Origin: Adlercreutzia sp. ZJ304
GTDB taxonomy: Bacteria > Actinomycetota > Coriobacteriia > Coriobacteriales > Eggerthellaceae
Assembly: GCF_011039075.1 (NCBI RefSeq)
Contig: NZ_JAAKEG010000005.1
Span: 62,001-126,000, forward strand
Reading direction: 5' to 3'
DNA: 64,000 nt
The first letter of the stretch is position 1; each line of letters begins with the position of its first letter. Of this stretch, positions 23,405-60,524 are shown piece by piece. A program made the position numbers and the translations under genes. The notes beneath the pieces were generated by a model. It worked only from the letters and a program-made list of their open reading frames with translations, ran no database searches and was not told where the DNA came from.

Positions 23405-23507
23405 TCAACTCAACTGCAATCTAATGAAATGTCCACGCCCCCTTACCGCCGCAGAAATACAAATACAAAGCAGGTTGAAGCTTCCTAGTTCAAAAAAGTT
23501 AGAAAAA

Positions 23508-23650
23508 TGGTCAAAACTTCCGACTTTCCACTGTGAAAAGCACAGAATAGCGCCTATAGATGCATCACCAAATGCTGTTTGCCCAGTGTTCTCCACAATT
23601 CAAGCCAGCCATACGGCAATCCGACCATGGAAAGTCGGAAGTTTTGACCA
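23508..23650. mobile_element. MITE-like element, copy 1 (143 bp)
   Basis: A 143-bp non-coding element bounded by perfect 23-bp terminal inverted repeats (23508-23530 and 23628-23650) that begin TGGTCAAAACTTCC. A second element of exactly the same length lies at 60372-60514 in the opposite orientation; the interiors are diverged but alignable. Flanks are A- and T-rich. It has no transposase and would need one in trans. It sits beside the truncated mazF. Confidence 0.85.
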
Positions 23651-24026
23651 CTTTTGTCAATTTATTTCTCTCGCCACGTATTTGAAACTTTGCAACTTAA
23701 CGAGGTTGATTGCAATCGCAATATGGACATGTACAATCTTAATGTGAACGGGTGCTCAGATTAAGAATTCAATCAACATTCAACTAGCAACCGCAACACT
23801 GCAAAGTTTGTATAGCAGATAACTCCCGACACATTTCTGCAAGATTTGCACTCATTAAAAGTTGCAACTATGGGAACTTGCGATGTCAATAGGTGTTGCA
23901 AACAGTTGGTTTTGACATGAAATCTATATGTCACTTGATATCGCATTTTTGATACACAGATATAAGGTTTGCAATCTAGTCTTGATTAGAAGATTTATAA
24001 GTCTTCTAGAGAAAGAATAGATTGCT
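23651..24026. other. Gene-free AT-rich spacer upstream of the Rpn-family gene
   Basis: No coding ORF is recognised. Notable short structures are TGACAT (23913-23918) with ATGTCA (23928-23933), and TAGAAGA (23987-23993) with TCTTCTA (24002-24008). The second dyad spans a TTTATA box and probably belongs to the promoter of the next gene. Confidence 0.5.
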
Positions 24027-55963: not shown

Positions 55964-56599
55964 ATGGCGTTTGATTTCAAGAAAGAATACAAGGACATAT
56001 ACCAACCATCGAAAAAGCCTTCCATAATTGAAATGCCTAGCATTACCTATGTTGCCGTCAGGGGTCAGGGCGACCCAAATGTCGAAGGGGGACAATATCA
56101 AAGGGCTATGCAGATGCTCTATGGAATTTCTTTCACTATAAAAATGTCGCCGAAAGCAGGGCACAATATAGACGGATACTTTCCCTATGTGGTGCCGCCA
56201 CTGGAAGGTTTTTGGTCGCTAGATGAAAGTAACGGCGAATTCGACCCCGCCCGTAAATCGGAATTCAAATGGATAAGCTGCATAAGACTTCCAGATTTTG
56301 TAACGCCCGATGTATTTACGTGGGCAGCAGAAGAAGCCAGCAAAAAGAAAGGTGCCGACTTTTCTGCCGCCGAAATGCTAACCATAAACGAAGGCATGTG
56401 TGTGCAATGCATGCACATTGGTCCTTACGACGACGAACCGCCAACCATAGAAAGTATGCATAAATTTGCAGCCGAGCAGGGCTTTTGCGTGAACTTGACG
56501 GACGAGCGCCTGCACCATGAAATATATTTGTCCGATCCGCGTCGCTGCGCCCCAGAAAGGCTACGAACCGTAATTCGCCTGCCCATTGCAAGAATGTAA
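55964..56599 (+). CDS. GyrI-like small-molecule-binding protein
   Basis: A 211-residue protein of the GyrI-like superfamily (COG4832 type): MPSITYVAVRGQGDPN near the start, GFWSLDES in the middle, and MCVQCMHIGPYDDEPPTI near 145-162. It lacks a helix-turn-helix, so it likely binds a compound without acting as a regulator itself. The ATG at 55964 is preferred over a GTG at 55955. Its 3-prime end overlaps the convergent SSS symporter gene by 39 bases. Confidence 0.82.
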   Translation: MAFDFKKEYKDIYQPSKKPSIIEMPSITYVAVRGQGDPNVEGGQYQRAMQMLYGISFTIKMSPKAGHNIDGYFPYVVPPLEGFWSLDESNGEFDPARKSEFKWISCIRLPDFVTPDVFTWAAEEASKKKGADFSAAEMLTINEGMCVQCMHIGPYDDEPPTIESMHKFAAEQGFCVNLTDERLHHEIYLSDPRRCAPERLRTVIRLPIARM

Positions 56600-58102
56600 G
56601 CTGGGTACATCTCCCGTGCCCGCAGCTTCCAATTCGCGCTCTTTTTCCTCGTTGGCACGTATTTCTTCGCGAGAAAGTCCTTTCCAAGTAGGCTCAATAC
56701 CACGCGCTTTGTCTTGCATCATTCCCACAACGCCCGGAATAATGTAAGCCAGCCAGCAAATAATAGCGCCCCAGAGATTAACACCTAGGAAATTCGCATA
56801 CTTGCCAGCGCCTATATTCATAAACGAGAGCGATGCCGCATCAACAACATCCCAAATGCCCAAAACCATGCCAATCCAGAAGGCTAGGAAGAAACCTACT
56901 TTAGTCGGCTTCACTACGCCATGCATTAAGAAGATGGGACCTAAGCCCATTATCATGGTGCCGGAAATTGTGGTAGCTAGAATAATGTCGGCGCCCATAA
57001 TCATAGGCAGGTTGCCCACAATTGCAAAAGCAATCATAAACAAAATGCCCGCACGGCGAACATGATCTAGATTCTTACCCAAAATGCCCGGCAAATCGCG
57101 CGCGGTCAGCTTCGAAAGCGCTGTAAAAGTTGAGTCCAGCGTAGAGCCAGCCGTCATTATCATTATGACTGCCATGCAGAAGAACGCCAGTATACCGAAC
57201 GATTCCGCAACAACCACAGGCGCGTCTGAGCCACTAATGCTCATTCCCTCAAGATAGGCGTACACGCCGATGAACGAAAACAGCACAATAGCTACAAAAC
57301 CCAGCAAGCCAGCCACGATAAATGCTTTCAGCATTTTCTTGGCTTCACATAGAAAGCCGCGGTCGGTTAGCACCGCATCGTGAAAACCGTAGCTTAAGCA
57401 TTGCAAGCCAGCACCTATTATGAAGTCAACGCCGCCTTCCAGTGTCCATACGCCGGTTGACATGAATTCACCAACACCATGTGTGGGCACAACAAAGCAC
57501 AACACTGCAATAAGCAACGCTGCGAATAGTATTGCTTGCACCATGTCGGTAATAAGAGAGCCGCGCATGCCCGAGCGACAACAATATGCCAGCGTAAGTA
57601 GAGTGAACAAAATTGCTGCAATAATAAACGGTGCAGTACCCGAATTGCCATAGTAGGCACCTACAACAGATGTGTTCGACCAAATTTCGTTAAACAGACG
57701 TACAAGAATAGCTGCCGAAAAACAAAATGCCGCTGCAACCCCATAATGCTCGGTTAGGAAGCTGACAAGCGACGTTGCGCGAAACTTCACGCGAAGCCTA
57801 TAAAGCGCCCAACCGGTTAGCGGAATACACAGCCAATATACTGCGTATCCAACACCGCCTACAATACCGAAATTGGCGCCCATATTAGCCGCGTTTGTAA
57901 CCGACTTCGCAAAAATCCATGCAATGAAGACGGACGCCATGACAAGCCAAGGATTGGCATCGCGTCCCTTGCGATCTTCACCTCTAAAGAAGCCGCCTAC
58001 AGTCACAGTCTTCGGGGCTATGGCAAACATCACAATGCCATATACGATCATAAAGCCCCAGAAGAATATACCGGTGGTCATATCCATCGTCATGCCTTTC
58101 AA
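56561..58102 (-). CDS. Sodium:solute symporter family (SSS) transporter
   Basis: A 513-residue carrier with about 13 membrane segments. SSS features include the first-helix pattern with NAANMGANFG and the GSTLDSTFTALSKLTARDL block (near 328-346). The substrate is unknown. Its promoter region carries two dyads, indicating regulated expression. The metallophosphoesterase-radical SAM gene lies directly upstream in the same direction. The last 13 codons overlap the convergent GyrI-like gene. Confidence 0.9.
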   Translation of the reverse strand: MKGMTMDMTTGIFFWGFMIVYGIVMFAIAPKTVTVGGFFRGEDRKGRDANPWLVMASVFIAWIFAKSVTNAANMGANFGIVGGVGYAVYWLCIPLTGWALYRLRVKFRATSLVSFLTEHYGVAAAFCFSAAILVRLFNEIWSNTSVVGAYYGNSGTAPFIIAAILFTLLTLAYCCRSGMRGSLITDMVQAILFAALLIAVLCFVVPTHGVGEFMSTGVWTLEGGVDFIIGAGLQCLSYGFHDAVLTDRGFLCEAKKMLKAFIVAGLLGFVAIVLFSFIGVYAYLEGMSISGSDAPVVVAESFGILAFFCMAVIMIMTAGSTLDSTFTALSKLTARDLPGILGKNLDHVRRAGILFMIAFAIVGNLPMIMGADIILATTISGTMIMGLGPIFLMHGVVKPTKVGFFLAFWIGMVLGIWDVVDAASLSFMNIGAGKYANFLGVNLWGAIICWLAYIIPGVVGMMQDKARGIEPTWKGLSREEIRANEEKERELEAAGTGDVPSLHSCNGQANYGS

Positions 58103-58231: not shown

Positions 58232-60256
58232 CTAGCTGGCTTCGCCCTGCACTAATGTGCCACCGCAGCTAGACCCAAACCCAGCGGTACACGCATAACA
58301 ATGGTTCCCAAACTTAATGCTGCGCTGAAGCGAACGAGCAGCATTGTTAGCGTAATCGGCAATGTTTATAGGTCCGTTTTCATCCTCGGCAGCAAGCCCC
58401 AATGCTAAATTGAAGTCGCAGTCATACACCGTGCCATCCCACCCTACGGAAAGCTGATGGCGGCACATCATGTTTTCGCATGTATCAGGGTTGAAACTGT
58501 CTATTAGCAAATCCATATAATTCTGGAATGCGCCGGAATCTATAAGACTTGCACCATATTTACCAATAGGGTTATTTGCGACAGCAAATAGATTATTAAA
58601 ATCAATGCCTACCTGCCCCAAACGTCGCCTATACATCTGTTCAAGTTCATTCTGCTCTGGCGGCATAATTGGCTCTTGCGGGTTAAACACTAAATCTAAT
58701 ACACAAGAAGAATCGCGCCCATAACCTAAGTCGTTCAGCGATTTCAATATCTTTATCGACCTGTCATATGTTTTGTGCCCGCGCTGCATATCGGCCTGCG
58801 CACCAAACACATTAGGAAGCGACGCCGCAAGTTCTATACCCAAACGTGCATACACATCCAAAAGATGGGAATACTCAGGCAAATCTAGCACTGTCAAATT
58901 TGTACGCACCATTACATTAGACACAGCATTGGCAGCCTCGCGCAAAAACCACTCGAATTCCGGATGCATTTCAGGCGCGCCACCCGTTATGTCTATAGTC
59001 TGCATTTGTCTATCGCGCGCCACTTTCAAAATGGCTTCCAACGTTTCATGATTCATATGTTCGTCACGCTTAGGATTACAACCGTGATGGCAATGCGTGC
59101 AAGCCATATTGCATTTAGCCGTTAAATTCACTTGCAAAGTATTAGGAAACGGATCGGTTATCGTACACGATTCATCGTCTAACACATCTTCGAAGTACAA
59201 CAGCTTGGCTAATTCCAAATTCACATCGCGCACTGTAGCCCGAGTGCCGCTTCTTCGAACGCCCGCAGCAGAAGGTCCACAACTAAACCCACCCAGCAAA
59301 GAGTCGATCAAATAGTCTTCCGGACCGTTAAGTATGCGGTCCCTGTACGATACAGCCGCAGGACTAGTTTCACTCCACAACGCATCAAACCACTTCACAT
59401 ACGCATTATGATCGTAGCGAACAGGCACAGCCTGAATGAACAAATCATCAAGCTGCGTGCCAAACGACCATTCTTCACTAGAATTGCACGCAATGCGAAT
59501 GCATAACCCGAAATTCTCGCCCGCAAAATTCGGAAGGCCAGCGGCACCGTTATTTATAATGGCGCCACGCGCCAACGTTAGAGCCACAGGCGCGCACGTA
59601 TGCGTTGTGACAAAAACATCAATGCTGTTTGCCGCCATGAAACCATCTAATTCGTCTTGCCGCATTATGTCTTGCAGGGTTTCGCGCGAGCAATCCCATC
59701 CACCTATCAGCTTCTCGTCGCCATGGGTTATTCCCACCTTAAAGCCAGCTACATCTACAGTAAGCGTAGCTGGACGCCCAACAAGACGCTGCTTTAATTC
59801 GGGATGCTTATCTACCGCTATAGACAGCATCTTATGTATTCTGTTCGAACGCGAAACCGCCTCGTCAGTCGTACATTCCGGATAGGCGCAGCCGCACCCC
59901 ACCCCCACATCGGTCTGACGACGCAGTTCAGCTTCAACATTGCCTACCAGCGGCACATATTTCTGAATACGATCTTCAATAGCGGCGAAATTTTCGGCAG
60001 TTTTGTCAAACCAGTGCGCGTCGCCGTTAAATACCACAAGTGTTTTCTTGCTGCTGTCTTCCGCCTGAACCATAGCCTCTATAGCATCGAGCGCGAAAGG
60101 ATTGCCGTACAAACCACCTACCACATACAAAACATCGCAACTTTCCTGCGGCGTACCGCTGAATGCATCTTTAGCAATCTTGTAGTCAATAGGACAAGCG
60201 CGCCCGGCATCTTTGAACAAACGGCGCTTCACGCTATGAGACTGGCAAGTTGACAT
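58232..60256 (-). CDS. Fusion: metallophosphoesterase plus ArsS-like radical SAM protein
   Basis: A 674-residue protein. The N-terminal half resembles calcineurin-type phosphoesterases: VVGGLYGN (near 45), FNGDAHWFD (near 76), LVGNVEAE, THGDE (near 177) and THTCAP (near 218) supply Asp, Asn and His ligands. An extra cysteine cluster CGCAYPEC lies near 119-126. The C-terminal half (about 345-674) is a radical SAM enzyme: CNMACTHC (near 380-387) gives the CxxxCxxC cluster motif, and ITGGAPEMHPEF is the second motif. A cysteine-rich end (CYACTAGFGSSCGG) matches the ArsS/rSAM-SeCys family, some members of which use selenocysteine; here cysteines are encoded. GGAGG precedes the ATG. The reaction is unknown; an organoarsenic or other phosphorylated product is possible. 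No arsM is nearby. Confidence 0.88.
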   Translation of the reverse strand: MSTCQSHSVKRRLFKDAGRACPIDYKIAKDAFSGTPQESCDVLYVVGGLYGNPFALDAIEAMVQAEDSSKKTLVVFNGDAHWFDKTAENFAAIEDRIQKYVPLVGNVEAELRRQTDVGVGCGCAYPECTTDEAVSRSNRIHKMLSIAVDKHPELKQRLVGRPATLTVDVAGFKVGITHGDEKLIGGWDCSRETLQDIMRQDELDGFMAANSIDVFVTTHTCAPVALTLARGAIINNGAAGLPNFAGENFGLCIRIACNSSEEWSFGTQLDDLFIQAVPVRYDHNAYVKWFDALWSETSPAAVSYRDRILNGPEDYLIDSLLGGFSCGPSAAGVRRSGTRATVRDVNLELAKLLYFEDVLDDESCTITDPFPNTLQVNLTAKCNMACTHCHHGCNPKRDEHMNHETLEAILKVARDRQMQTIDITGGAPEMHPEFEWFLREAANAVSNVMVRTNLTVLDLPEYSHLLDVYARLGIELAASLPNVFGAQADMQRGHKTYDRSIKILKSLNDLGYGRDSSCVLDLVFNPQEPIMPPEQNELEQMYRRRLGQVGIDFNNLFAVANNPIGKYGASLIDSGAFQNYMDLLIDSFNPDTCENMMCRHQLSVGWDGTVYDCDFNLALGLAAEDENGPINIADYANNAARSLQRSIKFGNHCYACTAGFGSSCGGTLVQGEAS

Positions 60257-60312: not shown

Positions 60313-60371
60313 GCACGACTAGCGATTTTCGCTAAACAGAATTGCACGCATATCAACTTTTGCAGAAAAAA

Positions 60372-60514
60372 TGGTCAAAACTTCCGGCTTTCCACGGTGG
60401 AAGTGCCATATAGCCCGCTTGAAATGTGGAGGACACTAGGCAAACAGTGTTCAATGGTGTCTCGGCGGGTGCTATTAGGTGTGTTTGAGTGTGGAAAGTC
60501 GGAAGTTTTGACCA
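60372..60514. mobile_element. MITE-like element, copy 2 (143 bp, inverted relative to copy 1)
   Basis: Terminal inverted repeats of 23 bp (60372-60394 and 60492-60514) differ at one position (GGC for GAC in the left end). The length is exactly 143 bp as in copy 1. When reverse-complemented its interior aligns with copy 1, sharing words such as CTGTTTGCC and CTCCACA. It lies between the radical SAM gene and the AGCS symporter, ten bases from the stop of the latter. An A-run and a T-run flank it. Confidence 0.85.
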
Positions 60515-60524
60515 TTTTTCCGAA

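Follow-up and report, generated by a model that had tools for sequence, protein, structure and literature searches.

A predicted metallophosphoesterase-fold domain fused to an ArsS-family radical SAM domain, and the transporter-linked module to which it belongs

Why should a radical SAM domain of the ArsS type be joined in one protein to a domain resembling a phosphoesterase? The ArsS proteins known so far stand alone, at about 320 aa, and act after ArsM. We know of little that has been established about the steps of arsenosugar-type biosynthesis after ArsS. A joined protein of this kind is encoded in the window, i.e. the whole 64,000-nucleotide stretch of Adlercreutzia DNA that was analysed. 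Modest in itself, the fusion leads to a three-part module that has no name yet, to a changed metal site and to a role, open to testing, in a pathway known only in part.

The fusion gene and its ArsS-family half

The reading frame runs from an ATG at 60256 to a stop codon ending at 58232, with no internal stops in the window sequence and with a GGAGG ribosome site 5' of the ATG (Table 1). The coordinates of the original prediction are correct, with the gene on the minus strand. Its central observation, a phosphoesterase and a radical SAM domain joined in one protein, also holds: the 674-aa frame is intact and the fusion is conserved among relatives. Homologues matching the whole fusion at 57-68% identity were found in 7 of 99 relatives, and full-length fusions are also known from further genera, Bacillota among them. 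An artefact of assembly or chance was therefore rejected. The model of the full-length fusion from structure prediction has a pTM of 0.61, and because of this value the relative placement of the two halves was left uninterpreted.

Two elements of ~150 bp, at window positions 60367-60519 and about 23503-23655, have nearly identical 29-base inverted arms and diverged interiors. One such element sits just upstream of the fusion gene.

Table 1. Positions of the fusion gene, its domains and motifs, and associated genes (window coordinates unless a locus is named)
Feature	Position	Strand	Basis
Fusion gene, MPE-fold plus ArsS-family radical SAM, 674 aa	58232..60256	-	Open frame; full-length homologues; single clade of fused ArsS domains
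N-terminal metallophosphoesterase (MPE)-fold domain (predicted), residues 1-330	59267..60256	-	AlphaFold2 and structural alignment
GGLYGN, residues 47-52, where canonical MPEs have the DxHGN metal motif	60101..60118	-	Aligned to SDIHGN of SapH
CGCAYPEC, residues 121-128	59873..59896	-	Conservation in 81 sequences
THTC, residues 218-221, in place of GHTH	59594..59605	-	Alignments to SapH and Vps29; conservation
ArsS domain (TIGR04167), residues 372-668; DUF3641 at 531-667	58253..59143	-	373.6 bits vs cut-off 300; DUF3641 156.7 bits
Radical SAM CxxxCxxC, C382, C386, C389	59090..59113	-	Invariant in 103 ArsS domains
C-terminal Cys motif HCYACTAGFGSSC, C653, C656, C664	58265..58303	-	Kept in fused, ArsM-fused and standalone ArsS
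Putative SSS-type (sodium:solute symporter-like) transporter, next gene downstream of the fusion	56561..58102	-	Module linkage; homologue passes Pfam SSF
ArsM-ArsS fusion, 725 aa	L036:6816-8993, contig C28	-	Own genome

Judged from its profile matches, the C-terminal half belongs to the ArsS family, as had been proposed. The suggested search was run: the match to TIGR04167, a curated NCBIfam equivalog, lies well above cut-off and covers model positions 8-303 of 303, both Pfam Radical_SAM and DUF3641 were found in this part, and the half does not group with a different radical SAM family. The CxxxCxxC expected near residue 380 corresponds to C382-C386-C389, and the cysteine-rich end, described earlier as CxxC...GSSCGG, reads HC653YAC656TAGFGSSC664GG. 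Its three cysteines, with C598 and C613, are the auxiliary cysteines conserved in 103 ArsS domains. The likeness to known ArsS (TIGR04167; Synechocystis ArsS) thus extends over the whole radical SAM plus DUF3641 region, CxxxCxxC and all auxiliary cysteines. The differences are that the ArsS of the window is joined to an MPE-fold domain, is linked to an SSS-type transporter and falls in its own clade. ArsS domains fused to the MPE domain form one clade (support 100/96), inside which the Bacillota and Actinomycetota fusions are sisters. Methyltransferase-fused ArsS domains form another clade, except for one row truncated by the end of a contig. This tree would be explained by one fusion that was then inherited vertically and also spread laterally to some extent.

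Fold and metal ligands of the N-terminal half

The N-terminal half is predicted to have an MPE fold. Using an alignment of 50 relatives as input, AlphaFold2 gave a model with pLDDT 93.4 and pTM 0.91, in which, by comparison with solved MPEs, the fold spans residues ~40-312 of the fusion protein. Four MPE-fold entries match this model at Z 19-21 across 213-239 residues, with Foldseek E down to 3e-10; the VIA-align Z values are 20.9 for 2gju (PH1004), 20.6 for 1nnw (Pfu-1218608), 20.2 for SapH (3qfn) and 19.3 for 3rqz. PP5 and calcineurin rank after these with Z about 15 (Foldseek/VIA-align). The best structural matches, PH1004 and Pfu-1218608, have degenerate metal motifs (LANIAGN, LGN, no GHxH); in the window domain, by contrast, one site is complete and invariant cysteines are added. 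We know of no function for either protein. The nearest characterised protein by fold is SapH (Spr1479; PDB 3qfm, 3qfn), an asymmetric Ap4A hydrolase and phosphodiesterase, with 237 residues aligned at 19% identity. The original prediction had called this half a calcineurin-type phosphoesterase. Structure prediction, the check proposed there, did return the MPE fold, with Z 20 to solved MPEs, but the domain is not of the normal calcineurin type, having GGLYGN for DxH and Cys for the last metal His.

Sequence searches recognise the domain less readily. The MPE half of the window does not reach the Pfam cut-off (Metallophos_2, E=0.053, 14 vs 27 bits); a Campylobacter concisus homologue (L107:7995-8915) exceeds it (29.2 vs 27). 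The half alone matched no NCBIfam family at E 10 and therefore is not among the named NCBIfam MPE families. Searches of PDB sequences gave radical SAM matches only, plus one marginal match, with the window protein, and no match with the C. concisus homologue; with the MPE-half profile, PDB matches were weak only (best Vps29, E 0.075). No usable alignment was obtained by hhalign between this profile and the single YfcE-like protein of the genome, and no MPE-half homologue was found in the phages searched.

The active site was aligned to SapH, using a sequence identical to the PDB chain, and conservation was assessed in 81 MPE-half sequences (19 fused and 62 not fused). GD, GN, H and the first H of GHxH are common to SapH and the window domain. 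The corresponding residues, D79 (GD), N106 (GN), H178 (THG) and H219 (first H of GHxH), are invariant in the 81 sequences, as are G78, G105, G179 and the NNG loop. From general knowledge of the MPE superfamily, we take these four ligands to form one metal site (site 2), and the positions of G48, Y50 and C221 to belong to the other (site 1). The site-1 ligands, i.e. D and H of DxH and the last H of GHxH, are lost and replaced by G48, Y50 and C221, all invariant in the 81. In SapH both DIH and GHIH are intact; the window domain has GLY and THTC, and it also carries a GCGCxYP loop as an insertion and is extended at its N-terminus. SDIHGN of SapH aligns with VGGLYGN, in which G47, G51 and N52 are invariant alongside G48 and Y50. 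Since the site-1 ligands are replaced, the domain is named here MPE-fold and is not filed as a canonical MPE. The extra CGCAYPEC cluster to which the original prediction drew attention is present and strongly constrained, with C121 and C123 invariant in the 81 sequences and C128 invariant in fused forms only.

C121, C123 and C221 may make up one site. Any catalysis by the MPE half is putative, since the DxH motif has become GGLYGN and the last metal His has become Cys. The half may be a poor or non-hydrolytic enzyme, because DxH and the last His of the second metal site are missing. Its altered metal site amounts to a sharp structural prediction.

A module of transporter, MPE and ArsS

The transporter gene directly downstream has its probable true start at an ATG at 58093, preceded by AAGGAGG, and no terminator-like site was found between it and the fusion gene. 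Its product scores 21.8 of 184 bits against TIGR00813 and has no Pfam match; a homologue (L107:6610-7998) passes Pfam SSF (28.2 vs 22.8).

A phyletic survey of the fusion and its neighbours, as had been suggested, showed the fusion to be conserved and brought out the linkage to the SSS-type transporter. An N-terminal profile search of genome contigs gave 314 MPE relatives, the best 80 of which were studied as loci. Among these best 80 of 314, 75 loci have a transporter homologue (48-78% identity) that is either fused to the MPE gene or no more than about 2 kb away, and the two genes often overlap by 4 bases; L113, a 76th, shows just a 32% transporter match, 4.3 kb off. ArsS adjoins the MPE or is fused to it at 66 of the 80, and separate MPE genes often pair with the transporter rather than with ArsS. 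All three parts occur in a Eubacteriales MAG as one 1179-aa ORF, in the order transporter, MPE, ArsS (L055:6384-9923). Within the same best 80 of 314, fusions are present in Adlercreutzia, Gordonibacter, Raoultibacter and some Bacillota MAGs, and standalone MPE genes in Pseudomonas, Halopseudomonas, Peptostreptococcus, Parvimonas, Brachyspira, Gemella, Campylobacter concisus and others. On a RefSeq-annotated plasmid (a single record), the MPE homologue is named 'hypothetical protein' and directly adjoins arsS. The fusion is one form of a wider, uncharacterised module of transporter, MPE and ArsS, and the MPE half belongs to a widespread and mostly standalone family.

Across 398 genomes of the class, the MPE and the transporter are each present in 20, with 19 common to both. 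ArsS is present in 80 of the 398 and in all 20 MPE genomes; the hypergeometric values for this (1.4e-15 by genome, 2.5e-6 by genus) are both too small because of shared ancestry. Fourteen module genomes were checked whole, 12 of them without ArsS in the flanks. ArsS was found in 12 of the 14 and not in the genomes of L068 and L115.

Pathway context, arsenic and competing readings

Cheng et al. 2021, as cited in PMC12159101, showed adenosylation of arsenic by ArsS in arsenosugar biosynthesis. Synechocystis ArsM and ArsS work together (PMC8552651). Standalone clusters encode TIGR04282 and TIGR04283, whose family names both read arsenosugar biosynthesis glycosyltransferase, as well as VTT-domain membrane proteins, a VTT/FAD oxidoreductase, a TIGR04169 peroxidase-like protein, and Fe-S and C-GCAxxG-C-C redox proteins. 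An APH-type kinase is fused to or beside TIGR04282 in related clusters. The compact cluster of Campylobacter concisus (L107:63-8915) comprises a TIGR04282-APH-type kinase fusion, two VTT proteins, TIGR04283, DUF6037, an Fe-S protein, ArsS, a C-GCAxxG-C-C protein, the SSS transporter and the MPE. A plasmid island of Burkholderia glumae (L181) bears arsS, an MPE homologue and an MTA phosphorylase, along with both arsenosugar glycosyltransferases and another radical SAM protein, which is related to TrsS. In the genome of the window, no match above cut-off was found for TIGR04283 or TIGR04282. The kinase, phosphorylase and nucleotidyltransferase-like proteins of related clusters point to phosphorylated sugar intermediates, which would fit TIGR04282 and TIGR04283, the APH-type kinase and the B. 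glumae MTA phosphorylase, and which would offer a possible task for a phosphoesterase. The arsQML arsinothricin cluster of Burkholderia gladioli (PMC8552651) is likewise compact, with a transporter and a radical SAM C-As bond-forming enzyme; unlike the window module, it has no phosphoesterase. Limited literature searches for arsenosugar with metallophosphoesterase, and for ArsS with ArsM and radical SAM, found no paper.

The reading preferred here, tentatively and at a little under an even chance, is a two-domain enzyme of one pathway, in which the ArsS half attaches an adenosyl group to an As(III) species, the MPE half hydrolyses a phosphorylated intermediate and the transporter moves substrate or product. 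A [4Fe-4S] cluster in the ArsS half would cleave SAM, and the 5'-deoxyadenosyl radical would be transferred to a trivalent (methyl)arsenical, as in known ArsS, giving a 5'-deoxy-5'-arsinoyl nucleoside. A phosphorylase, such as that suggested by the MTA-phosphorylase-like gene of a related cluster, would remove adenine and leave the arsenic-bearing sugar as a sugar phosphate. The MPE half would then hydrolyse a phosphoester or nucleotide-activated form of this sugar, with its metal held by D79, N106, H178 and H219 and with C121, C123 and C221 possibly supplying a thiol site at the usual place of the second metal. The adjoining transporter would carry substrate inward or product across the membrane. 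What each half catalyses, the order in which the steps occur, the involvement of arsenic, the closeness of the cysteines to one another and the direction of transport are all inferred. The MPE family, fused or adjacent to ArsS and tied to one transporter, becomes a direct candidate for the step that follows ArsS, and the SSS-type transporter one for the missing transport step. An unannotated protein of Pseudomonas, Brachyspira, Peptostreptococcus, Campylobacter concisus and gut Eggerthellaceae is thereby predicted to act in the same pathway. A bolder proposal, somewhat unlikely as it stands, is that the conserved module makes an undescribed adenosylated metabolite, possibly non-arsenical, and that the MPE-fold domain represents a novel type of metalloenzyme, with a three-cysteine thiol site in the place of one of the two classical metal sites.

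The MPE half might instead be a non-hydrolytic binding domain, holding a soft metal or metalloid, e.g. As(III), through C121, C123 and C221 and passing it to the radical SAM half or the transporter. Loss of three second-site ligands beside three invariant cysteines, close structural relatives nearly without metal ligands (Pfu-1218608, 1nnw, has lost almost all), and the frequent pairing of separate MPE with the transporter rather than with ArsS are consistent with such a role. However, the invariance of D79, N106, H178, H219, G78, G105, G179 and the NNG loop would be needless in a mere scaffold, and a binding domain is considered unlikely.

The original prediction stated that ArsM is not in the window. 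None lies within it, but the genome does appear to have ArsM: ~72 kb from the fusion, on the same contig, are the 725-aa ArsM-ArsS fusion, a second ArsM-like methyltransferase and an ArsS that stands alone. The genome holds one MPE-fused, one ArsM-fused and one standalone ArsS, and its ArsM-like domains score 185.8 and 119.6 bits, below the curated cut-off of 263. Both of its fusions have an ArsS family domain with an N-terminal partner; in the ArsM-ArsS fusion, the partner is a methyltransferase and the ArsS domain lies in a different clade from the MPE-fused one. The ArsM-ArsS gene is preceded by genes for a CobW-type GTPase (362 aa) and the ArsM-like methyltransferase (376 aa), with the standalone ArsS on the other strand; ArsM-ArsS fusions occur in other genomes of the order as well.

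A further possibility is that the fused ArsS-like enzyme adenosylates some other substrate, imported by the SSS transporter, and that the ArsS and arsenosugar glycosyltransferase names are over-extended. Surveyed with model NF008823 at a threshold of 1e-25, ArsM was matched in 11 of 26 module genomes and not found in the other 15, by a model that also misses Synechococcus elongatus, an ArsS carrier. Gordonibacter sp. 28C gave no ArsM match, though the same model clearly finds one in two sister Gordonibacter species. Only 2 of the 80 loci (best 80 of 314) have arsM within 8 kb, and in one genome that is 99% complete (G041; contig C2:1603591-1604499) the MPE-ArsS fusion is the only ArsS found. 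Set against this are the high TIGR04167 score with all ArsS cysteines conserved, the ArsM fused to another ArsS in the window's own genome, and a possible external source of methylated arsenicals; ArsM may also have gone undetected, given the miss in S. elongatus. A non-arsenical substrate is regarded as unlikely. If ArsM is truly missing from module carriers, the view that all relatives of ArsS act on arsenic needs revisiting. The product had earlier been proposed to be an organoarsenical or something undescribed; an organoarsenical is no more than plausible, because in several module genomes no ArsM was matched by a model that does find it in near relatives.

That the two halves were joined by coincidence or degeneration, without a shared pathway, a view to which the poor recognition of the N-terminal domain by family models might lend some weight, is strongly disfavoured and very improbable in view of the 57-68% full-length identity, the single clade of fused ArsS, separate genes adjacent in distant phyla, an independent three-gene arrangement and the triple fusion.

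In the ArsM-like frames of Gemella (L177:5974-6555, minus strand) and Parvimonas (L178:6069-6653, minus strand), the full match spans a single in-frame TGA in each case, which would represent either selenocysteine or a broken gene.
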